A stretch of 52,257 bases of DNA, taken from a virus. Below, in pieces: positions 3,501-23,247 of this stretch. Positions within the stretch are counted from its first letter, which is position 1; every line of letters begins with the position of its first letter. The notes under the pieces were generated by a model, which did no database searches, was not told the origin of the DNA, and saw nothing but the letters and a program-made list of their open reading frames with translations. Both the position numbers and the translations under genes were made by a program. The stretch lies in the IMG/VR virus record IMGVR_UViG_3300042879_003234, positions 1-52,257 of that record, one strand, 5' to 3'.

Positions 3501-6115
3501 CATACTGCTCCAGAAATAAATCTTGGATTTCTTAGTTCTGTTGAGTTTGAAAGTTCTGCAAAATTTGGGCTATAATATTTTGCTACCTCAGCGTTTGTTG
3601 ATGGAATAGTTCCATTAGATTCTTGAATAATATACCCATCCAAAGGTGGTCTACCTTTAATAGGGGAATCTTTAGGAACAACATATCTGACTCTAAAAAT
3701 TTTATCTGAAAGTGGTCTTGGATCTGGACGACGATAGAGGAAAGTCTTTGGAGTGGTAACACCCAGTTTTCCAACTCCATAAGCGTTTAATGTTTCGTTA
3801 ATGTTGTTCTTTAATGGATCACTTGAAACATTTACATACCATTGTCCAGCAGAAGAATCCCATTGAATAGGATGCCCTAGATCTCCAGGTGCTTTATCAG
3901 AAACACGACTTTCTATGGTTAGCAATCCACCACGATTATTGATGTCTAGTGGAGTATCGTTAATTGCTTCGTTGATTGTCTGTGCTAATTTAATTTGGTT
4001 TACTCCCAAACTTGGAGAAACCTCATTTGTAATTACATAGTAGATTGAATTGAATATAATACCATCAGGTAGAGATCCATTATTACTTAATATCCTAACG
4101 TTTTCTCCAGTTTTAAGAGTGTGTCCCGTATTTAAAGTTATAATGTTATTCTCAATATTATTTTGATTGGATGCTGTTAACGCGACGGTAAATACTTTTT
4201 TAGATGTTGCTTCTGCTCCTGTTCCAGGAGTATTTTGCATTAAGATTGGTGCGGAAATTTCATAAGTATTTTCAGTAGTAATTAAAGTTGCGTTCAACCT
4301 ATCATCTGATTTTGCGCCAAAACGATAACCTTGAATAACGTGTGATGGAGGATTATCGAATGTATTTTGATCATAGAGATATACACGAGTATTATCACCA
4401 ATTGATGTGGTAACTCCAACATCTATTCCTAAAAATTCAATTGTAATATCATCGGTTTCTAATTCTCTTGGAGGAATGATATGGGTGACATATCCAACAT
4501 CATCTTTTACAAATGCGTTTCTCTTAAATCCAGTTGCATAGAGAGACTTAGCACCAAAGTTTGAGTTGGAGTTTGTTAATGATAAATCTCCTCCTGTCTC
4601 TACAACAAAATGATTTGCATATCCAATTGCGAAGATAGAGACTAATTGTAAGATTGAGTCATTAGAAGCTTTAATGTGGAAGTTTTCATATGCTGGCTTA
4701 TAACGTGCTCTAGAATCCGAAGAAATATTTTCATTTCCAGAGGCAGTTCTATCTAGATAAGTACCTGACGCTGAATCGTACTTAACGAAGGCATTTGGAT
4801 CTTTTTGTAGTCCAATACCAGTAAATTGAGCAACAACCATGGACTTGAATCCTGTTGCTTTATCTCCATCTGCATGGAGACCACACATACCATATACAGA
4901 TCTAAGAGATATGTTAAAGATATATGGAGAAGCAGATGAAACAGTATCAACAACCGCAGTGATTGTAGGAACACCACTAACAATGGTTGGTAAAGCATTA
5001 GATGGTGGATTTTGAACTCTATACTTAACCTGAGTCGTATTTACAACTTCACTAATTACAAAGTTTCCATTATATCCAGCAGCATTTACACCAGCAATAG
5101 TAATGGGGGAATCGACTTGGAAGTTTTGATTTGCTGATCCAAAAGTTACTGTAACCGTGCTAGTGGAATTAACTCCATCTCCTGCTTTAATACTAGTAAT
5201 TCCTACAGTATCTCCGACAGAACCAACAATTCTGTATTCATCAATTTTTGGTTCAATATCTACTGTTCCTGCACCAAAATCTGGGGTGATTGGTCTTCCG
5301 CTAGATGCTCCAAATGCTAATCCAACTTTTTCATAATACATTTCAAGATCAGTTCTTGTTGTAGAAAAACTTGAAATAAAATCATCAGCAATCTCTACAG
5401 CGTTAACGCCATCGGCATATTCAAATGCTGTTAGTTTATGGTGAGAAAAGTTGGGAATGAAGGTATTTGTTGTATAATCCTTATAGATTTGTCCACTAGG
5501 ATTAGCATCAAAAATAGTAAACTGCCAGAAATAACTTGCTCCAGTTACTCTAAAAATTGCAGACCTTTCAATTTGATCATTTTCTGGATTTGGAATGTAT
5601 AGAGGTCTGATAACTGTCTTTCTAAGATCTAAACCAACAATAGAGCAACCTCTTGGAATAATTACTCCACCATGAATACTGTTTAACTTATATAAAGCAT
5701 TATCATTTGTGGAAATGTCGAAATTAGTATTTAAATCAAACTGGGAAAAATTGTTTGTATATGATCCTGCTCTTGTTAGATAATTGTTTCCAGAGACTGG
5801 TGCATCATTAATTGGAATAAATCCTGGTCTGTTATCAACTATATGTTCGCCAGGATAAACCATTACTGTGGTACGACCAAATCTATCGTTATTTGGTCCT
5901 CTCTGATATGAAAATCTTGCTACTTCAAGAAGTGCTCTTTGGATTGTTTTAAAGGGTCTGGTTAGAGAATTACCTTGATTTTCAATGCTATCAGTCGCGT
6001 CAATGTTTGAAGGATCAACGTAAATAATATCCCCTTTAGGATTCTTTAAAAAGTTATTTAAACGACTAAGACCCATTTTATTAGCACGGATAGTTCTGTT
6101 AAGATTATTTAGCAT
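572..6115 (-). CDS. Giant virion structural protein, beta-helix/fibre-like (1847 aa)
   Basis: A very large late protein. The first 100 or so residues contain DIIYVDPSN, RPFKTIQRALLEVARFSY and VMVYPGEHIVDNRPG, a start I associate with pectin-lyase-like beta-helix structural proteins of cyanophages. Long beta-rich Gly/Asn/Thr regions follow, with degenerate GLGYG-type repeats, and the C-terminus (about residue 1700 onward) has fibre-like VGIGT and VSGFSTF repeats. I chose the ATG at 6115 because GGAGG lies 9 nt upstream in the 3' arm of a hairpin (6120-6143); a second ATG at 6076 (MGLSRLNNF) has no clear ribosome site. The frame extends 12 codons further upstream but only through that hairpin. 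Probably a tail fibre or baseplate-attached surface protein. Confidence 0.85.
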   Translation of the reverse strand: MLNNLNRTIRANKMGLSRLNNFLKNPKGDIIYVDPSNIDATDSIENQGNSLTRPFKTIQRALLEVARFSYQRGPNNDRFGRTTVMVYPGEHIVDNRPGFIPINDAPVSGNNYLTRAGSYTNNFSQFDLNTNFDISTNDNALYKLNSIHGGVIIPRGCSIVGLDLRKTVIRPLYIPNPENDQIERSAIFRVTGASYFWQFTIFDANPSGQIYKDYTTNTFIPNFSHHKLTAFEYADGVNAVEIADDFISSFSTTRTDLEMYYEKVGLAFGASSGRPITPDFGAGTVDIEPKIDEYRIVGSVGDTVGITSIKAGDGVNSTSTVTVTFGSANQNFQVDSPITIAGVNAAGYNGNFVISEVVNTTQVKYRVQNPPSNALPTIVSGVPTITAVVDTVSSASPYIFNISLRSVYGMCGLHADGDKATGFKSMVVAQFTGIGLQKDPNAFVKYDSASGTYLDRTASGNENISSDSRARYKPAYENFHIKASNDSILQLVSIFAIGYANHFVVETGGDLSLTNSNSNFGAKSLYATGFKRNAFVKDDVGYVTHIIPPRELETDDITIEFLGIDVGVTTSIGDNTRVYLYDQNTFDNPPSHVIQGYRFGAKSDDRLNATLITTENTYEISAPILMQNTPGTGAEATSKKVFTVALTASNQNNIENNIITLNTGHTLKTGENVRILSNNGSLPDGIIFNSIYYVITNEVSPSLGVNQIKLAQTINEAINDTPLDINNRGGLLTIESRVSDKAPGDLGHPIQWDSSAGQWYVNVSSDPLKNNINETLNAYGVGKLGVTTPKTFLYRRPDPRPLSDKIFRVRYVVPKDSPIKGRPPLDGYIIQESNGTIPSTNAEVAKYYSPNFAELSNSTELRNPRFISGAVWSPANGGIAIIFTELPHDLALGSEVEISNIASINNLTAADDLGFNGKFIVVSVLSRKSFVVLLPTDPGAFATNTSQRTVNLPAFKRTKYYSTYVIYRVEEVQEYIPNEKDGIYYLIVINSGNTPSPSPFNTLKFLQPVQYLYPQTNRDNPVSDPLPTVSHALPDPIGQVVVNDPERSITKESLGRALLDFGVGVGITNIISKFEGASISQYKHTIYTRLDHGLNRLVEVSIISGGLGYGFGSAAALYNAPLVGIAGTFGDGATAAVKVDASGTITGIAIMDGGSAYSVGDTLTVANVGVVTFAPWVPAILQVSKIYDNIGETISVQGIYPPIYDGYNALYEVVGLSTGKTKEIEVYSATPVSAATTTGLGATFTAFSALQYNAPTIKVQSFTYNNVTGIVTVTCPDNHGLFVDNKVRLGGFDNDFFNKDYIVKRINSLTSFNIRPGISTVAISTAGTPKIYRGGFGANGGALTKTGDRISARIVTEYAGIVTTLGASIVDSATDTVVINNVSNFDFRLGDYFTVDDEIFRIKSAPGIGSAISNPVAVFRGLFGSQRQPHVIGSAVRRIKVRPSELRRHSIIRASGHTFEYVGYGPGNYSTALPDKQDRQLKPAEELIAQSTRVDGGINVFTGMNNDGDFYIGNKRVSSATGQEEIFDAPVPTVTGEDIGVNLGGLNLGFDLINPLEANVQRSLRVDGGSDNNAISEFSGPVVFNNKIISNTDRGVQVKSLLLQGESDTTQKISVGISTPTTAGDYGDVTFADNPVSGQTIGWVYTINNTWERWGPIQNNGRFVGIWSGIDGVPSFFGDGSGLFNVSDIWKVDAVGIHTDRKVGIGTDSAKSGVSLYVRGDSEITGVTTVSNNTQSTTPANGAFIVKGGVGIGSNLNVGGDFRISGVSTFANDVYIQGSLDINGHTELDNLNVSGFSTFMGPVRFNDYVGMDTGLSVAGVVTFTDRFYYGKQEFKTYISGWTIVFGL

Positions 6116-14945: not shown

Positions 14946-16317
14946 ATAGTATGCTAGTGATCCCTCCAGAAGAAGCACTCTTCTTACCATCTCCCTCCCT
15001 AACAATGTTTAACTTTGTATAAGAAGTTCCTGGAGTTAATTGATGACAAATATCCGAAATCAAATAGATACCACTTAACTTTGTACTGACTTTCTGTTGC
15101 TCCTGTGCAGATTGTTCTGGGAAAGCAACCTCAATTAAATCTCCAGCATGAAGTGAAAAGTTTGCAGGAATAGTTATCTCAACCTTTCTAGCATACAGTT
15201 GATTATATCTCATTGGTGCTTGAGCAACTGTACTCTCAATATCCATTGTTGATTCTTTTGACTTTTTCAATTGCTCTTCTACAGTTGCTCCACTAGGTAG
15301 AACTCCTACAGGAAGAGTCGATACGAACTCTCTAGACACTTTATCTTTCAACCAATCTGGAAGACACTGCAACTCTTTTCCAGCAGTCTTGACTTTTGAT
15401 TCCTGTTCACTTGCCTTTTTTTCTTGATCTTTATACTCTTGATTATAAGTGTTTAATGTTCTGGTTCTATTTCCGTAAGAACCCATCTGAAGTTTTGATT
15501 GAATGTCCATACCACCAGTATCATCTTCGCTTGCTGCTACTACAGTATAGTCTACAATCTTTCCAAAATATCCATTGGGTAGATCCGTCGTGTTATTCAT
15601 AATATATTTTGGTGGTGTCTTCCCCTTACTATCTAAAAGTTTATCGATAGATTTAAAATAAAATCCATCACTTGTTTCATAAAAGAAATATCCAGCAGTT
15701 GGATTTTTATTTGTTGCCCCTTCCGTTTTCTTATTGGTTTTTGTTTGCTCAATTTTTGGAATAGATTTTTTACATAACCAAGTACAAATGTAAAAAGGTT
15801 TTCTTGAATTTCCTAGAAAATTATACTCATTCAAAGTCTCATCAAAGAAAACTTTCTTCTGCGTTTTAATTATATCTCTCATAATTTTTGCAAAAGAATC
15901 TGAAATTTTTCCGTCATATCTTTTAACAACTCTTTCTATCTCATTCAAGAAATATTCTTTACTTGTAAGTTCCAAAGCAACAATATTCCTAGTTGTACTT
16001 CTTGTAATTCCTGCAGTTTTATTCACATGAACTTTAACTGCTATTTTTTCACCATAGTTGTCGATCATTTCTAAATCTAATTCTTCACCACCACAAACTG
16101 GAAGTCCTTCAATAACTCCCTTTGCATTTTCTCCAGTTCCAACACTTTGTCCTGTCTCGGCAAAAACAATTCCAACATCAATTGTTTCCTGTAAAATACT
16201 CTCACGATATTCTATGCGAGCAAGACCAGTTGATAGGTCAACTTTATTACTTCCTTGATTGGCCTTTAAAATACATTTTTTAACTTCAGCCGATTCAGCT
16301 CTTTTTGTTTCCGTCAT
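14944..16317 (-). CDS. Baseplate hub protein, gp27-like (457 aa)
   Basis: The N-terminal half is beta-rich, with a segment on symmetric strands (VDLSTGLARIEYRESILQET). The C-terminal part has VEITIPANFSLHAGDLIEVAFP and SGIYLISDICHQLTPG, the pattern of gp27/gpD-type hub domains that form a hexameric-looking ring from a trimer. It precedes CP12 and gp5 and follows the tape-measure-like gene (TAATG overlap), as expected for a hub. The Lys/Thr-rich middle (about 190-210) may be a loop. Similarity to T4 gp27 is structural rather than clear at sequence level. Confidence 0.65.
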   Translation of the reverse strand: MTETKRAESAEVKKCILKANQGSNKVDLSTGLARIEYRESILQETIDVGIVFAETGQSVGTGENAKGVIEGLPVCGGEELDLEMIDNYGEKIAVKVHVNKTAGITRSTTRNIVALELTSKEYFLNEIERVVKRYDGKISDSFAKIMRDIIKTQKKVFFDETLNEYNFLGNSRKPFYICTWLCKKSIPKIEQTKTNKKTEGATNKNPTAGYFFYETSDGFYFKSIDKLLDSKGKTPPKYIMNNTTDLPNGYFGKIVDYTVVAASEDDTGGMDIQSKLQMGSYGNRTRTLNTYNQEYKDQEKKASEQESKVKTAGKELQCLPDWLKDKVSREFVSTLPVGVLPSGATVEEQLKKSKESTMDIESTVAQAPMRYNQLYARKVEITIPANFSLHAGDLIEVAFPEQSAQEQQKVSTKLSGIYLISDICHQLTPGTSYTKLNIVREGDGKKSASSGGITSIL

Positions 16318-19300
16318 TATCCTACAGCGTACAATTTGTTAAATGGATCATATGTAGATTTAGTATTATTATTTAATCCCATTCCAGAAGATCCAGATGA
16401 AGATCCTCCTTCAGGTCCTTGAGATGATTCTGAATTATCTACAACGATAACCTCAGATGATCCTCCAAATTCATATGAAGCATACTTACTTAATGATGAT
16501 ATGATTGAAGGCATCTTAGTCTGTAAAGATTTTTTATCATGAACATCATAGTTCAAAATATCAAGTAATCCTGGAGCAACTCTTTCCGTTGCCTTATATG
16601 AGTCAGCATCAATTACATATTCAGCACCCTTTTCACCAATCATAGCTACGTGTGGTTTCGCTAAAGTTGGTCCACCTTTTTCATACAACCTCATCAATTC
16701 TTGTGGAGCAACTTTTCCTTTCTCATCATATCTACCATGAGCAACGAAAGAATTTGATCCTACAATATCAGCACTCACACCAAATCCATTTCTACGATAT
16801 TGCATTCCAGTAGTTCTAAGAGGAAATGGAACCTTTGCCTCAAAATCAACTTGCATATCAATTCCACCCTGAGATCCTTTAGCAGTGTGAACTTGCTGCT
16901 CTCTCGCAATCATTTTTGCAGCTTCTCCAGAAGAAGGTTTGCTTCCTTTCGGAACCGAAACTTTACTTCTTCCAAAGTAAACACTTCTCTTTCCTGCAAA
17001 TTGATTAAAAGCTTTTAGTGCAGTTGATCTAGCATCAGAGTTGTATTGTGATTGTAATATTGTTCCCTTTGTTTGACTTCCAGGACCAATATGAAAGTGA
17101 ACTCCTTCAGATGCTCCAGAATTTCCCTGAATAAATTTACCATCCCCACCGACTTGTCCACCTTCTTTAGTATCAGACATACCAGGACCAGTTGGAGAAC
17201 CTATTTGTCCTTTTTTGTATTTTTCAAGCCTATTATTAGCATATCCAACAAGAGTCTTCATACTTTTTTCTGGTTGACCATAACCAGCACCAGGAAGGGA
17301 AGCCCAAGTTTTTCTCGCACCATGGAAAGCAGTAGCAAAATCTCCTTTATCAATAGCTTGAAGAACATGAGGTGCAAGTAACTTTAAGGCACCCTTATCT
17401 TGGTTAGCAGGACTGAAATCTGGAAGTCCTAAACCATCCCAAGTTGTACTTAAAAACTGATAACGACCCGCAGCATCTGAAGCATATCTACCACTACGTT
17501 GTATTTGTCTGGGGTGATTTCTGTACCCACTAAACTGTTTTCCAGTGAACATAGTATTGTATCCTGTATTAGGATAGTTTGCAGTCCCCTCGGCATAAGC
17601 AAGTGTATCTAAAAATGCTCTCCTATATGGATTTAAAGACGTATCTGCAGTTCCTCCTCCAGTTGTCTCCCCACTAAACTCTTCACCATTTACTCCAGGT
17701 GCTGATTGAGTTTCTTCTTCTTTTTTCTTAAGAAGCATATTTTTCATCAAATCACGAGTCACACTATCCACTTTTGGATAAATTGAATCCTTAGCGGACT
17801 GTTCTATCCACTTAGTAAGATCAACATCTCCATTTGTGATACTAGGATCTACTAATCCACCTTCAGCAAAGGCAGTTATGATACCACCTTTCAATTTATT
17901 TTTAGCAAATCCTTGTTGAATAAGTGCGTTAATACCTAAAGCAACATTTTCAAAATCACTGTTAGATGGTTTCTGTCCCAATAGTAAATTAGATGCCAGA
18001 GTTAATACTGGTCCAAAGAAATCTATTTTTGAATATGTAACAGATGATCTCCTCATGAAACCAAAAGGATCTGGTTGTTCTTGAGGTTTTTCTGTAGTTT
18101 TCTTACCAAAAAGACCAGCAAAAGGGTTTGGGAATAGTCCAAAAAGTTTTTGTTCTCCACCGATATCTTTTCCTGGAACAACCTGTGGAGCGGATGGTAA
18201 CTTAGCAGTGATTCTTCGTTTACCTTTTCCTAGTCGTAATTTTCTACCAGATGGTTTTGATCTTCTAGATTTACGATTTTTATTTCCAGCTTTGCCCCCT
18301 TCAGCATATCCTTTTTTATTCCCAGTTTCTTTTGATGACTTATTATTAAAAAATACATCATAAAGTTTTCCGCCAATATCTCCCCCAACAAAACCTCCAA
18401 CAGCAGCACCTATTGGTCCACCGATAGCAGCTCCAACAGCACCAACTAATAATGAACCAATACCTCTAAATGCTGCTTTACCTATAGGATCACCAAGAGC
18501 CCAAGATAAACCAAATTCAAGGAGTCCCCCGATGATAGGAAGTCTTCCAAGAATCGGTTTTAAACTTCTAAGTGCTGCTCTTTGTGCAACCTTTCCACCA
18601 ACACCTTGAGTTACTTTTGGTCCAGTACCAGGAAATTTAAATCCTTTACCACCACTCGTAGTTACTGTTGGTTTCTTTCTAAATGGATTTCTTACATCAG
18701 GTTTTCCTACTCGACGACCACCTGAAGTTGTTACTCCCCTAAAACCTTTTGCAGATGCTGCTCCTCCTGCTCCCTTACCACCACCAAGACCCATTCCTCC
18801 ACGATTTCTAACAGCAATCAAACCAGCAATGATTGCTAAGTTAATGAATGTGTTTAATGTACTTGAAAATTTATCAAATAATTTTGCTCCCGTATCACCA
18901 AACATATTTTTGATGAATCCACGAGTAGCATCATATGCTTTATATCCCCAATCTATGAATGTAACAAGTCCATCTAGAAGTTTTCCTCCAATATCAATAA
19001 TAAAATCCGCAGCTTTTACCATCACAGATACGAATTTCATCGCAGTTGGTAAGTGTTCAATAAGTCTGTAAGCAAGAAATCCTAGAACAGTATTGAAAAT
19101 AAAGTTTTTAATCCAATCAAATAATCCCATTTTTGGTGTAGGGATTTTTGGTTTCTTTAAGTCATCTTTGGTAGGTTTCTTTTCTAAATCTTTTTCCTTT
19201 TTTTCAAATTCTTCTTTTTCAGATCTTCTTCTTTTCCTTTCAGAGTCTTTTTTTTGAGTAGCAAAACTACTCTGCAACATTTTTTCAATATCAATAACTT

Positions 19301-19499
19301 TTAATTTAATTTCGTAAACGTCTTCTTGAACTCTATCTGAAAAATCTTGTTTTTTCTTTGATAAAATATCAGTTGTTTTAACAGTTTTTTTCGATGCAAA
19401 GAATTTTGTTTGTGGAGAAATTGCACCAGAATTTGATTTGACTAAAGATCCTCCTTTATTCCCTGCAGGTAAAAATTTTCTAGTGTTTAAGTTAGCCAT
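16317..19499 (-). CDS. Tape-measure-like protein with GH104 lytic transglycosylase (1060 aa)
   Basis: The N-terminus is charged and helical, with a Lys/Glu/Arg block at about 83-118. Hydrophobic segments follow at about 126-146, 219-230 and 319-375. Residues about 624-763 closely resemble phage lambda endolysin R: RRAFLDTLAYAEGT with candidate catalytic Glu637, then AGRYQFLSTTWD, DFSPANQD and WASLPGAGYGQ. A later region (about 795-930) has HFHIGPG and GGIDMQVDF, like pieces of an M23 peptidase in swapped order. VAMIGEKGAEYVI near 952 is a motif seen in tape-measure proteins. I infer a tail protein that digests peptidoglycan during DNA entry. Confidence 0.8.
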   Translation of the reverse strand: MANLNTRKFLPAGNKGGSLVKSNSGAISPQTKFFASKKTVKTTDILSKKKQDFSDRVQEDVYEIKLKVIDIEKMLQSSFATQKKDSERKRRRSEKEEFEKKEKDLEKKPTKDDLKKPKIPTPKMGLFDWIKNFIFNTVLGFLAYRLIEHLPTAMKFVSVMVKAADFIIDIGGKLLDGLVTFIDWGYKAYDATRGFIKNMFGDTGAKLFDKFSSTLNTFINLAIIAGLIAVRNRGGMGLGGGKGAGGAASAKGFRGVTTSGGRRVGKPDVRNPFRKKPTVTTSGGKGFKFPGTGPKVTQGVGGKVAQRAALRSLKPILGRLPIIGGLLEFGLSWALGDPIGKAAFRGIGSLLVGAVGAAIGGPIGAAVGGFVGGDIGGKLYDVFFNNKSSKETGNKKGYAEGGKAGNKNRKSRRSKPSGRKLRLGKGKRRITAKLPSAPQVVPGKDIGGEQKLFGLFPNPFAGLFGKKTTEKPQEQPDPFGFMRRSSVTYSKIDFFGPVLTLASNLLLGQKPSNSDFENVALGINALIQQGFAKNKLKGGIITAFAEGGLVDPSITNGDVDLTKWIEQSAKDSIYPKVDSVTRDLMKNMLLKKKEEETQSAPGVNGEEFSGETTGGGTADTSLNPYRRAFLDTLAYAEGTANYPNTGYNTMFTGKQFSGYRNHPRQIQRSGRYASDAAGRYQFLSTTWDGLGLPDFSPANQDKGALKLLAPHVLQAIDKGDFATAFHGARKTWASLPGAGYGQPEKSMKTLVGYANNRLEKYKKGQIGSPTGPGMSDTKEGGQVGGDGKFIQGNSGASEGVHFHIGPGSQTKGTILQSQYNSDARSTALKAFNQFAGKRSVYFGRSKVSVPKGSKPSSGEAAKMIAREQQVHTAKGSQGGIDMQVDFEAKVPFPLRTTGMQYRRNGFGVSADIVGSNSFVAHGRYDEKGKVAPQELMRLYEKGGPTLAKPHVAMIGEKGAEYVIDADSYKATERVAPGLLDILNYDVHDKKSLQTKMPSIISSLSKYASYEFGGSSEVIVVDNSESSQGPEGGSSSGSSGMGLNNNTKSTYDPFNKLYAVG

Positions 19500-19503
19500 T
19501 TAT

Positions 19504-22353
19504 CTACTTGATTCCGTGAGTTGCTCTTGAGTTGCTTGTTCTTCTAGAACTTTGCGCTTGTATTGCTGGTGGTCTGGTGGCACTTCCACCATTTCTTGAT
19601 GATCTTCCACCGTTCATTCCACCACCAGCAGTTGGTCTAACGACTGTTACTTTTGGTTTTGGTGGAGATGGTGGTTTTGTTGTTGATGATGGTTTTGGTG
19701 TTGCTTTTTTTGCAATTTGCGCCTGTCTCGCTTGCTCTTGGGCGACTTTAGAGCCCCCACCAAACCATCCCATTTTATCCCACCAAGCACGTTTTTCTCT
19801 TAACTTTTCTTCATTTGCTCTTCGTTTTGCTAATCGCGCAGCTTCTTGCCTTGCTTTTGCTTGATCTGCAGATATTTGCTGTGCTGATTTTGGCTTTCCT
19901 GTTTTAGGATCAATTGTATTTCTATTAACAGATCCTATCTGAATTCTACTACCAAGAGCTCTTTGATTCAACCAACCAATATCTTGAGCAAATCTACCAA
20001 GCATCGATGCTCCATAATAAGTCGCATCGGACATAGAACCCTTTAATAATGCGTCTTTAGCCTTTGATGCGTATTCTGATACAGTCTTATTAAAGTTATA
20101 TCTATCATCAGAAAACAAAGTGTTTCCAGATCCTTCTGTTGCTGCAGAAAATCTTCCAAGAGTTGAGTTAAAAGATGATCCTCTCTTCCCTAATGTATCA
20201 GTATAAGCACCTCCCCCACGTTGCCCTTTATTAATATCTTCTTGATTCCAATTCATTTTCACTTGACCAGTTTTTGGATCTATCATTAAACCATGTTTGT
20301 TCATTGTGAGATCAATAGTTTTTTGTCTCATCGCATCGACTTCTTTATTGGATAAAATTTTAAAAGGTTTTCCAACAGGACCCAATAATGCTTTAAGGAA
20401 TGTAAGGTTTCTCATATTTGTAGCATTTCCAGTTGGAATAGGGATTAATCCCTTATCCGCCATTTCCTTAAATGGACCATCTGGTAATTTTTTAATGAAT
20501 TTATCACCAAAAGAAATCATTCTGTCCTGTATTTTATTTGTTCTTTCGGAAAACGATTGATATTCTTTTGATGAAGTTGCTCTTTGAATTGAACTTAAAG
20601 CATTAGATGTAGGTTTTTTGGGATCAAGATTAGTAAGGGTTCTAGAAGCATTTTGTGCATAATTCATTCCTTGAGAATAAAGTTGAGATCCAGCTTTATA
20701 TGCTTGATTTCCCAACATCATTACATCTCTTTGCAAGGATCCATTATTTAAATAACGTTGAGCAGATGCTGCTTGATTCATAGCACCACTATAGATGCTA
20801 TTTCCAAGATTTAAAGCAGTATTTTGCAATCCTTTTCCAGCTGTGGAAATAGATCCTGCTAATGATATACCATTTTTAATTGCTAAATTTTTTGCCCAAT
20901 TGTAATGTGGAGATAATTGTTTTACTATTTCATCGACAATTGATTTGAGATTATTACCACCAGATCTCAAACCCTCTCCATCAAATCCAACATATCCTCC
21001 ACCTTGAGCGTATACTGTTCCACTAATTTCTCTTGGTTTATTATTTCCGCCGCCTGCGGCATTCATTGATTCAAGAGTATCTACACCATACTTACGAACT
21101 GCTCCAGCAGACATTACAAATTCACCATCTGTAAGCATCGCTGGGATCTTATCAGTTCCTTTTTGTCCAGCAACTAATCCAGACCATCCACCTCCACTAA
21201 ATCCATATGATTTAGTTTCACCAGTTTTTAATTTAGAAATTTGTTCATCTATCTCAGATCCTTTTCCTTGAAGTTTTTCAAACCAACTTAAGGCATCCTT
21301 CTGTTTTTGAAGTTCTTTTATCTTTTCAGCATTACTACCAGGGGCTTGAGATACCTTTCTTTCTTGCTCGTCAACTGTTTCTGGGAACAACATTGGAATT
21401 GTTGCACCAGCAGTAAATAATCCAGTCGCAATTCCAAGAGGACTCTTTATAAATCTAAGAAGTTGAGGAATAGCAAATTTTGTTAACCTTAATAATCCAG
21501 AACCTACAATACCTAGAATACTACTGGTAAATTTTCCAAAACTTGTACCAAATAAAATGTAAGCCCCTAGTAAAGCAGGCCACCAATCTCCAAAAAATCT
21601 AATTAATGACCTAATTTTTCTAGCATTTTCTGGATTTGCAAACCAATCAACCAATTTAAAAACTATTCTACCCAGTAAAGTTTGTACAAAGAAGTTTAAT
21701 ATTTTTTCCCATATTGATTTAACAGGTGCTAAAATACCATCGATGACTTTTTTCATTACCTTCAATGGTTTTTCTAAAGCAGATTCTCTTGCTCCTCTAC
21801 GTCTAGATTCAGAGTCTTTCCTTTCATTCTCACGAGATTTAAGTTGAAATTTTAATTGCTCCCCAAGAATATTGGCGATAGATTCGACAGACTTTCTAAT
21901 CGCAGAAATATTATTTTCAAACTCATCACCCAAAGTTTTACTTTTATCTGTTACCTCAGCAGCAGTTACTGAAGTTCCTCCAGCTGGTAAAAGTTTTTGT
22001 GGAGAGATTACATTTGTTGATTGATTTAATATGTAATTATTATTTGTAATTTTTGCAGTAACGTTTTTTATCTTAGAAGCACTTACCTTTTTTTCCTTAA
22101 CTTTAAATCTTCCAGTTTTTCCTCTACCTTTTACCCGTTTTAACTCATCCTTTAAAAGATTTACTTCTTCATTAGCGAGTTTATTCTTTCCAGTTACAAC
22201 ACTCTTTACAAGTATTTCTTTTAACAGGGTAATATAAGTTTCATAATCCAAGTCAAAAACATCCTCCAATCCAAGAAGTCTCAGAATTCTTGCATCGATT
22301 TGTTCTGAAACGTTCTTGGAACTAGAGGTTGATCTTGGATTACCAACTACCAT
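19504..22353 (-). CDS. Tape-measure-like tail protein (949 aa)
   Basis: The first 190 residues are largely helical and charged (KDSESRRRGARE). Hydrophobic, probably membrane-inserting segments lie at about 217-237 and 257-318. At about 399-423 is GTDKIPAMLTDGEFVMSAGA, a motif common in phage tape-measure proteins. The C-terminal third is Ala/Gln/Ser-rich, low complexity and basic. The charged-then-hydrophobic arrangement matches the 1060-aa neighbour, suggesting a pair. No T4 gp29 homologue is obvious in the window, and this gene directly follows the frameshifting chaperone-like gene, the usual place of a tape measure. The role is inferred from motifs and order. Confidence 0.7.
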   Translation of the reverse strand: MVVGNPRSTSSSKNVSEQIDARILRLLGLEDVFDLDYETYITLLKEILVKSVVTGKNKLANEEVNLLKDELKRVKGRGKTGRFKVKEKKVSASKIKNVTAKITNNNYILNQSTNVISPQKLLPAGGTSVTAAEVTDKSKTLGDEFENNISAIRKSVESIANILGEQLKFQLKSRENERKDSESRRRGARESALEKPLKVMKKVIDGILAPVKSIWEKILNFFVQTLLGRIVFKLVDWFANPENARKIRSLIRFFGDWWPALLGAYILFGTSFGKFTSSILGIVGSGLLRLTKFAIPQLLRFIKSPLGIATGLFTAGATIPMLFPETVDEQERKVSQAPGSNAEKIKELQKQKDALSWFEKLQGKGSEIDEQISKLKTGETKSYGFSGGGWSGLVAGQKGTDKIPAMLTDGEFVMSAGAVRKYGVDTLESMNAAGGGNNKPREISGTVYAQGGGYVGFDGEGLRSGGNNLKSIVDEIVKQLSPHYNWAKNLAIKNGISLAGSISTAGKGLQNTALNLGNSIYSGAMNQAASAQRYLNNGSLQRDVMMLGNQAYKAGSQLYSQGMNYAQNASRTLTNLDPKKPTSNALSSIQRATSSKEYQSFSERTNKIQDRMISFGDKFIKKLPDGPFKEMADKGLIPIPTGNATNMRNLTFLKALLGPVGKPFKILSNKEVDAMRQKTIDLTMNKHGLMIDPKTGQVKMNWNQEDINKGQRGGGAYTDTLGKRGSSFNSTLGRFSAATEGSGNTLFSDDRYNFNKTVSEYASKAKDALLKGSMSDATYYGASMLGRFAQDIGWLNQRALGSRIQIGSVNRNTIDPKTGKPKSAQQISADQAKARQEAARLAKRRANEEKLREKRAWWDKMGWFGGGSKVAQEQARQAQIAKKATPKPSSTTKPPSPPKPKVTVVRPTAGGGMNGGRSSRNGGSATRPPAIQAQSSRRTSNSRATHGIK

Positions 22354-22540
22354 GTTGCATTGCCTGTTGCTTTGAGTTTTCTTCTTCTAAATGTTGCTTT
22401 AGTAATTCTACATAGATGTCTCGTTCCCAAGGCATCATGTTTTCAACTTCCCATAAAGAATATTTATGGTACTGAACTAAAGAAAAAACCAATTTATAAT
22501 AGCTCTCAAGATCTATGTGAGCTAAGGCTATGCGAAAAAA
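22340..22540 (-). CDS. -1 frame extension of gp26-type gene (chaperone-like tail, 64 aa)
   Basis: If ribosomes slip -1 on TTTTTTC (22540-22534), the gp26-type protein loses only its last Ala and gains 64 residues: RIALAHIDLESYYKLVF, then SLWEVENMMPWERDIYVELL and a charged helix. The W---NM-PWER-IY---L pattern is what I expect of the T part of GT-type tail assembly chaperones. The frame is open exactly from the slip site and its stop (22340) overlaps the next gene start. The fused product would be 302 aa. Independent translation from the ATG at about 22438, with GGGAAG upstream, is the alternative. Confidence 0.7.
   Translation of the reverse strand, partial: FFRIALAHIDLESYYKLVFSLVQYHKYSLWEVENMMPWERDIYVELLKQHLEEENSKQQAMQHGSW
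22506..22540 (-). promoter_or_regulatory. Programmed -1 frameshift site with downstream hairpin
   Basis: The heptamer T-TTT-TTC is in the right phase of the zero frame and is followed by GCA TAG. About nine nt after the heptamer, TAGCTC and GAGCTA can pair around a 13-nt loop, a plausible stimulatory stem. P2 E/E+E' uses the similar T-TTT-TTG. Confidence 0.7.
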
Positions 22541-23247
22541 CTGGATAGACCCTCCAATACTACTTCACTTTCAACATTGGTTACGGGATTTGTTACCTTT
22601 AGTGTGTGTGAAAGTTTAGGCATAGTTTCAAAAAACTTCTCAATTTGTTTAAATTGAGAAGAATTCATCTGATCTAAAAATTCAGTAACCTCTTTCTTTG
22701 TACAATCGGCAGCTGCCCACACTTCATCTTCGGTGTAAATTTTATCTACACAAGATGAAATGAGATCAAATGATTGTTCAATATTAGAGTCTCTTGATAG
22801 ATCGAAATTACTCTTGATAAACTGTTCTAAAGATGGATACTTCATATCCATCGAGATATTTTTATCAACTGTAATGGTTTTAGTATGTTCTTCGTTCTTG
22901 ACCACATTAATATCATCGATATTAATTTTTACAGTAACAGTAGTATCACCGTCATCTGGACAAATAATACTAACTTCTACTTCTTCTCCAACTGATTTTC
23001 CTCTAATGTTAAGGAACAAATATTCAATATCAAAAGTTGGAAGAGTTTCTACTTTAATATTTTTAGTGAGAATACAACTTTTAATTACTGTTTTAATTGC
23101 AGTAGTAATCTGTTTAGTATCTTCACTTTCTAAAGCTAATACAAGAAGTTTTTCTTCTCTTACTAGAAAAGGTCTATATTGTACGGTCTCTCCAGTTGAA
23201 GGCAATTCCAATTCATACGTTGGTGTAGAAATTTTAGGTAAAGGCAT
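22528..23247 (-). CDS. 26: Baseplate hub / tail assembly protein, gp26/gp51 type (239 aa)
   Basis: The N-terminus MPLPKISTPTYELELPSTGE followed by YRPFLVREEKLLVLALESED is the signature of the T4 gp26/gp51 family found in all T4-like cyanophages. The middle is beta-rich, then helical (DLISSCVDKIYTEDEVW). The protein ends SSFFA-stop, with the slippery heptamer TTTTTTC two codons before the stop. The late-like box CATAAATA lies 27 nt upstream. Known role in T4: baseplate hub and its assembly. Position before the tape-measure-like genes and the frameshift suggest it works like the G chaperone of lambda. Confidence 0.85.
   Translation of the reverse strand: MPLPKISTPTYELELPSTGETVQYRPFLVREEKLLVLALESEDTKQITTAIKTVIKSCILTKNIKVETLPTFDIEYLFLNIRGKSVGEEVEVSIICPDDGDTTVTVKINIDDINVVKNEEHTKTITVDKNISMDMKYPSLEQFIKSNFDLSRDSNIEQSFDLISSCVDKIYTEDEVWAAADCTKKEVTEFLDQMNSSQFKQIEKFFETMPKLSHTLKVTNPVTNVESEVVLEGLSSFFA

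Follow-up and report, generated by a model that had tools for sequence, protein, structure and literature searches.

The T4-like cyanophage locus described here lies in IMGVR_UViG_3300042879_003234 (positions 1 to 52,257; this whole stretch is referred to as the window), is read on the minus strand and consists of a T4 gp26-type gene followed in the -1 frame by an open extension. Together the two could encode a pair of tail assembly chaperones by programmed -1 frameshifting. The features concerned are:

22528..23247, minus strand: gp26-type gene, 239 amino acids (aa), putative short chaperone form (G-like, TAC-N), with its stop codon TAG at 22530..22528
22534..22540, minus strand: slippery heptamer T TTT TTC, in the zero-frame phase X XXY YYZ that tandem -1 slippage needs
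22340..22534, minus strand: -1 extension of 64 codons plus the stop codon TAA (22342..22340), predicted gp51-type C-terminal domain of the fused form

The zero frame of the gp26-type gene ends in ...TCC AGT TTT TTC GCA TAG. This bears out the heptamer (22540..22534) that an initial annotation, made from the sequence alone, had placed at the end of this frame; it had put the site two codons before the stop, whereas a single sense codon, GCA, lies between them. As also described there, the -1 frame provides 64 codons and ends in the start of the next gene, but it already opens at 22564, 24 nt ahead of the heptamer, rather than exactly at the slip site. The extension reads RIALAHIDLESYYKLVFSLVQYHKYSLWEVENMMPWERDIYVELLKQHLEEENSKQQAMQHGSW, and conceptual translation of the fused product reproduced the proposed length of 302 aa (238 + 64). 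The stop codon of the extension falls inside the next gene, the ATG of which is at 22353, resulting in an overlap of 14 nt. The gap from the gp26 stop to this ATG is 174 nt, not 175 nt as first counted, and it is indeed not empty since the coding extension lies there. In sequence of such composition a 64-codon open frame has a chance of occurrence of about 0.013; therefore, the window on its own is only suggestive, and proof has to come from conservation.

Conservation of the heptamer and of the -1 frame

Near relatives were collected from IMG/VR (80 sequences, 81 with the window), and all 81 carried TTTTTTC at the same place together with an open -1 frame. A wider survey comprised 261 loci, which formed 33 clusters at 60% protein identity with one representative each. 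Of the 261 loci, 258 combined in-phase TTTTTT[C/T] where gp26 ends with a -1 frame that stays open, all complete extensions among them having at least 54 codons, and both features were present in 33/33 clusters. The comparison with related phages proposed in the initial annotation thus came out in favor of a slip site. Among the clusters, the codon ahead of the two Phe codons may be one for Ser, Asn, Asp, Ala or Thr, with T as its third base throughout. By codon usage alone, a score of 33/33 would be expected with a probability of about 1e-17 when clusters are treated as independent, which they are not fully, so that this value is an indication only. Isolates with this arrangement include P-SSM2, syn9, S-SM1, S-CAM4, KVP40, phiN3, phiM12 and Melnitz-3, and furthermore HTVC008M, pf16, Ps15, Ah1, ACP17, LPCS28 and OLIVR5.

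Three of the 261 loci (L110, L090 and L095) lack the heptamer. In L110 the gp26 frame ends early and differently, which looks like a frame break, while L090 and L095 keep the -1 extension and their gp26 genes end in other T-rich sequences. Frame breaks of this kind are a common sequencing artefact, which is the sole point in favor of considering the extension a sequencing error or a decayed remnant. As the same frame relation occurs under purifying selection in more than 250 contigs and isolates, conservation rules this explanation out.

The frames could also be fused at the level of transcription, if RNA polymerase slipped on the T run and a minority of transcripts carried an insertion or deletion, with the ribosome not slipping. 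The run of six T, extended to seven or eight in HTVC008M, Melnitz-3 and phiN3, is consistent with this. However, six T are short for efficient polymerase slippage, and at most loci the run is exactly six T plus a following C, placed in the codon phase that tandem tRNA slippage requires. We therefore regard polymerase slippage as highly improbable.

Selection acts on the -1 frame. Across 78 near relatives, the median ratio of nonsynonymous to synonymous polymorphism (pN/pS) of the extension was 0.21 in this frame, compared with 1.17 and 2.98 in the remaining frames, where sequences contained 4 to 5.6 stops each; diversity at the three codon positions was 0.19/0.09/0.38. The extension is protein-coding in the -1 frame and under purifying selection in this frame only, and the impression that it reads like protein was correct.

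Two variants of the arrangement were noted. In six contigs (L152, L171, L172, L174, L186 and L126) the heptamer precedes the gp26 stop by about ten codons instead of one or two, and their short form thus has a longer zero-frame tail. In the Ackermannviridae, the gp26 genes of Salmonella phage SFP10 (L278, end near 2744) and Serratia phage KNP4 (L090, end near 2986) are followed by a -1 extension carrying the gp51-type motif YFxMCDxLKxHGYSxFEIS, but end in ATTTTC or GTTTTC and not in TTTTTTC. Because of this difference, these phages may rely on another slip site or on a restart.

The conceptual fusion is colinear with T4 gp51

By its profile matches, the gp26-type gene is a member of the T4 gp26 family: residues 9-239 matched PF12322 T4_baseplate (E 7.4e-75, 251.8 bits versus a curated cut-off of 24.5), the protein matched phrog_150 (E 2.5e-80), and the gene had matches in 718 phage records. 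The extension matched phrog_634 (‘baseplate hub assembly catalyst’, gp51; E 6.5e-20) and also the final part of the phrog_150 profile, while Pfam gave no match for it; judged from these similarities it is what databases name gp51. With tblastn it was found in 552 phage records, and among the matches listed with annotation it was located at the gp26 end and labelled gp51, labelled hypothetical or left unlabelled.

In T4, gp26 (208 aa) and gp51 (249 aa) are encoded by separate, divergent neighbouring genes, with no frameshift. Both contain the PF12322 domain, which in gp51 is matched by residues 1-201 (E 3.9e-52), and the full gp51 covers positions 13-280 of the 282 in phrog_150. Alignment of the conceptual fusions with gp51 by hhalign gave a probability of 99.2% (E 2.7e-19) and was colinear through the junction, so that gp51 resembles the conceptual frameshift product end to end. 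The extension by itself aligned with the C-terminus of gp51 (E 3.1e-8), but not with the N-terminal part. The fusion would have the gp51 architecture, a gp26-like domain followed by a C-terminal domain in one protein, provided that frameshifting takes place. T4-type gp26 and gp51 were sister clades (94/91) in a tree built from their common domain, a result that given midpoint rooting and long branches is a lead and not proof. The simplest reading of these similarities is that Tevenvirinae swapped the frameshift for a duplicated gene pair. PMC3004832 counts T4 gp26 and gp51 among the hub assembly chaperones and describes gp51 as essential, absent from the particle and of unknown function. The correspondence with the fusion suggests for gp51 a function that can be tested, that of the long chaperone form.

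Proposed mechanism

Altogether, we interpret the locus, with a probability of roughly 0.88, as a lambda G/GT-type tail assembly chaperone gene whose two products would be made by programmed -1 frameshifting. Most ribosomes would stop at the gp26 stop codon and release the 239-aa short form, whereas a minority would slip back by one base on T TTT TTC (Phe-Phe), bypass the stop and add 64 residues, yielding the 302-aa long form whose extra domain is the annotated gp51. By analogy with lambda, the product of the tape-measure-type gene immediately downstream would be covered by many short and few long forms, which would link it to the assembly of hub and tube. In Tevenvirinae such as T4, both proteins would come from the paralogous genes 26 (short) and 51 (long). 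It is from sequence that we infer the occurrence of slippage, its rate and the chaperone role. The end-to-end match to gp51 across the junction supports a lambda G/GT-like pair upstream of tape-measure-type genes, and this match together with the conservation agrees with the initial proposal that the gp26-type protein and its fused form probably act as tail assembly chaperones.

It is conceivable, though we consider it rather doubtful, that the long form serves as a GT variant for loading the hub, with the 64-aa domain recruiting a baseplate hub component and not the tail tube protein. If so, the frameshift rate would set the number of tape-measure/hub complexes, and the need for gp51, the split-off long form of T4, in hub assembly would be accounted for.

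Results weighing against a frameshifted chaperone pair concern the stimulatory elements, the predicted fold, the situation in T4 and the presence of start codons in the extension. A stem TAGCTC/GAGCTA about 9 nt downstream of the slip site, together with a Shine-Dalgarno-like sequence upstream, were considered as candidate stimulators:

22519..22524, minus strand: 5’ arm TAGCTC of the proposed downstream stem, starting 9 nt after the heptamer
22500..22505, minus strand: 3’ arm GAGCTA, pairing with TAGCTC
22551..22555, minus strand: Shine-Dalgarno-like GGAGG, 10 nt upstream of the heptamer

The stem noted in the initial annotation exists and folds at about -8 kcal/mol, but compared with synonymous recoding it was not significant (p about 0.07-0.15), and RNAalifold gave no meaningful consensus fold downstream. 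The stem columns keep 4.05 of 6 pairs versus 1.5-3.05 when slid, and the relatives showed a modest excess of structure over synonymous recoding (mean z -1.5; control -0.47). A conserved downstream stem as stimulator was rejected since there is no consensus fold and the window stem is not significant. It is possible that GGAGG stimulates frameshifting, as a Shine-Dalgarno-like site at such spacing does for -1 slippage in Escherichia coli dnaX. GAGG or GGAGG occurs at that spacing in 37/79 near relatives and is missing in many clusters, and GGAGG follows in part from the conservation of Glu-Gly codons.

AlphaFold modelled the window gp26 with confidence (predicted local distance difference test, pLDDT, 87). 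In Foldseek searches against the PDB, the HK97 chaperone 2ob9 (E 0.7 and 1.7, best probability 0.54) and YqbN 3klu (E 2.1, probability 0.35) were both among the top twelve matches, but remained below threshold, none of the twelve being significant. Against viral models, the best named matches were mostly gp26-family proteins. A PDB profile search gave no relevant sequence match, and Foldseek with the T4-type gp51 returned nothing useful. The split in T4 furthermore demonstrates that the two forms need not come from frameshifting.

The remaining objection is that the extension may be a separate small gene (gp51) with its own start in the -1 frame, possibly coupled to gp26 termination. It is annotated as a separate gene in P-SSM2, syn9, S-SM1, KVP40, phiN3, phiM12, Melnitz-3, HTVC008M and OLIVR5, and in 76 of 77 near relatives codon 3 or 6 of the extension is an ATG, making a free short gp51 product possible in them. 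In KVP40, phiN3 and Ps15 the ATG overlaps the gp26 stop. A different situation was found in the window, the one of these 77 with its first extension ATG so late:

22436..22438, minus strand: codon 32 and earliest in-frame ATG of the extension, from which the conserved N-terminal half would not be made

A protein started separately at this ATG would lack the conserved N-terminal half, so that exclusive production from an inner ATG, raised in the initial annotation as the alternative to a fusion, does not hold for the window. A start at TTG (22492), codon 14 of the extension, would still lose conserved residues. Concordantly, 24 of the 33 clusters have no ATG before extension codon 15, yet these residues (RIALxHxsLexYY) are conserved. 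A separate gene would moreover leave the in-phase heptamer unexplained, and T4 gp51 is an in-frame fusion. Since the in-phase heptamer is invariant and the early codons are conserved without an early ATG, the sequence comparison favours a frameshift fusion over a separate start, and we consider a separate gene alone improbable.

At the gp26 stops of KVP40 (L084, near 3007), phiN3 (L085, near 3004) and Ps15 (L091, near 3753) the sequence is TAATG or TGATG, with the ATG in the -1 frame. In these three phages a free C-terminal product could be made by coupled restart besides the fusion.

Relation to known frameshift chaperones

A frameshift chaperone gene of this kind is already known, T4-like phages included. 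In lambda the slip takes place on GGGAAAG, a heptamer other than the one in the window, and the partner of the T domain may here be the hub instead of the tail tube protein. The E/E+E’ pair of P2 is made by a -1 slip on a T-rich heptamer ahead of the tape measure gene. In both cases the likeness is one of arrangement. Like the pair proposed here, gpG/gpGT of lambda are two products, and in lambda neither of them is in the virion (PMC5009743). The same source stated in 2016 that G-T frameshifting is widely conserved among long-tailed phages, ‘except T4’.

Passages in PMC10274946 and PMC12846349 credit Vladimirov, Gautam and Davidson 2022 (Virology 566:9-15) with identifying the T4-like tail assembly chaperones, which according to these passages comprise, like the proposed products of the window, short (TAC-N) and long (TAC-NC) forms. 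Some T4-like phages are stated to encode the short form in one gene and the long form in a second, fused gene (passage in PMC10274946), and poly-T slip sites are mentioned as known in TAC-N genes of T4-like phages (passage in PMC12846349). The locus of phage Adele (Vandenendeviridae) likewise has an invariant poly-T motif at the TAC-N end and an open -1 frame in a stretch formerly annotated as intergenic or hypothetical, but its motif is GTTTTT compared to TTTTTT[C/T] here (PMC12846349). A literature search for frameshifting in gp26/gp51 or in cyanophages returned no direct match, and this prior art was reached via citations only.

In many cyanophage genomes gp51 appears as a truncated separate gene, or the stretch is left blank. 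Cyanophage gp51 was reported to be short, about 20% of the usual length, and gp51 to be missing in Aeh1 (PMC3037559). If the extension is the frameshift half of a chaperone, this would account for the short cyanophage ‘gp51’ and may explain the missing gp51 of Aeh1, the latter on the basis of phage Ah1. In Aeromonas phage Ah1 (L092) a gp51-type extension runs unannotated in the -1 frame from just past gp26, whose stop is at 3717, to about 3887.

Downstream genes

Two large genes follow on the same strand:

19504..22353, minus strand: next gene (949 aa), a tape-measure-like one judging from its position and from weak matches to the tail length tape measure families phrog_23013 and phrog_25241; overlaps the extension by 14 nt
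16317..19499, minus strand: gene after next, 1060 aa, with an endolysin/lysozyme-like domain at about residues 593-763 (phrog_90, E 7.2e-36; phrog_17230, E 8.9e-32)

In the annotations of HTVC008M and phiM12 a tape-measure-like protein is encoded a little downstream of gp51. The endolysin/lysozyme-like domain of the 1060-aa protein is situated in a tail-gene context.
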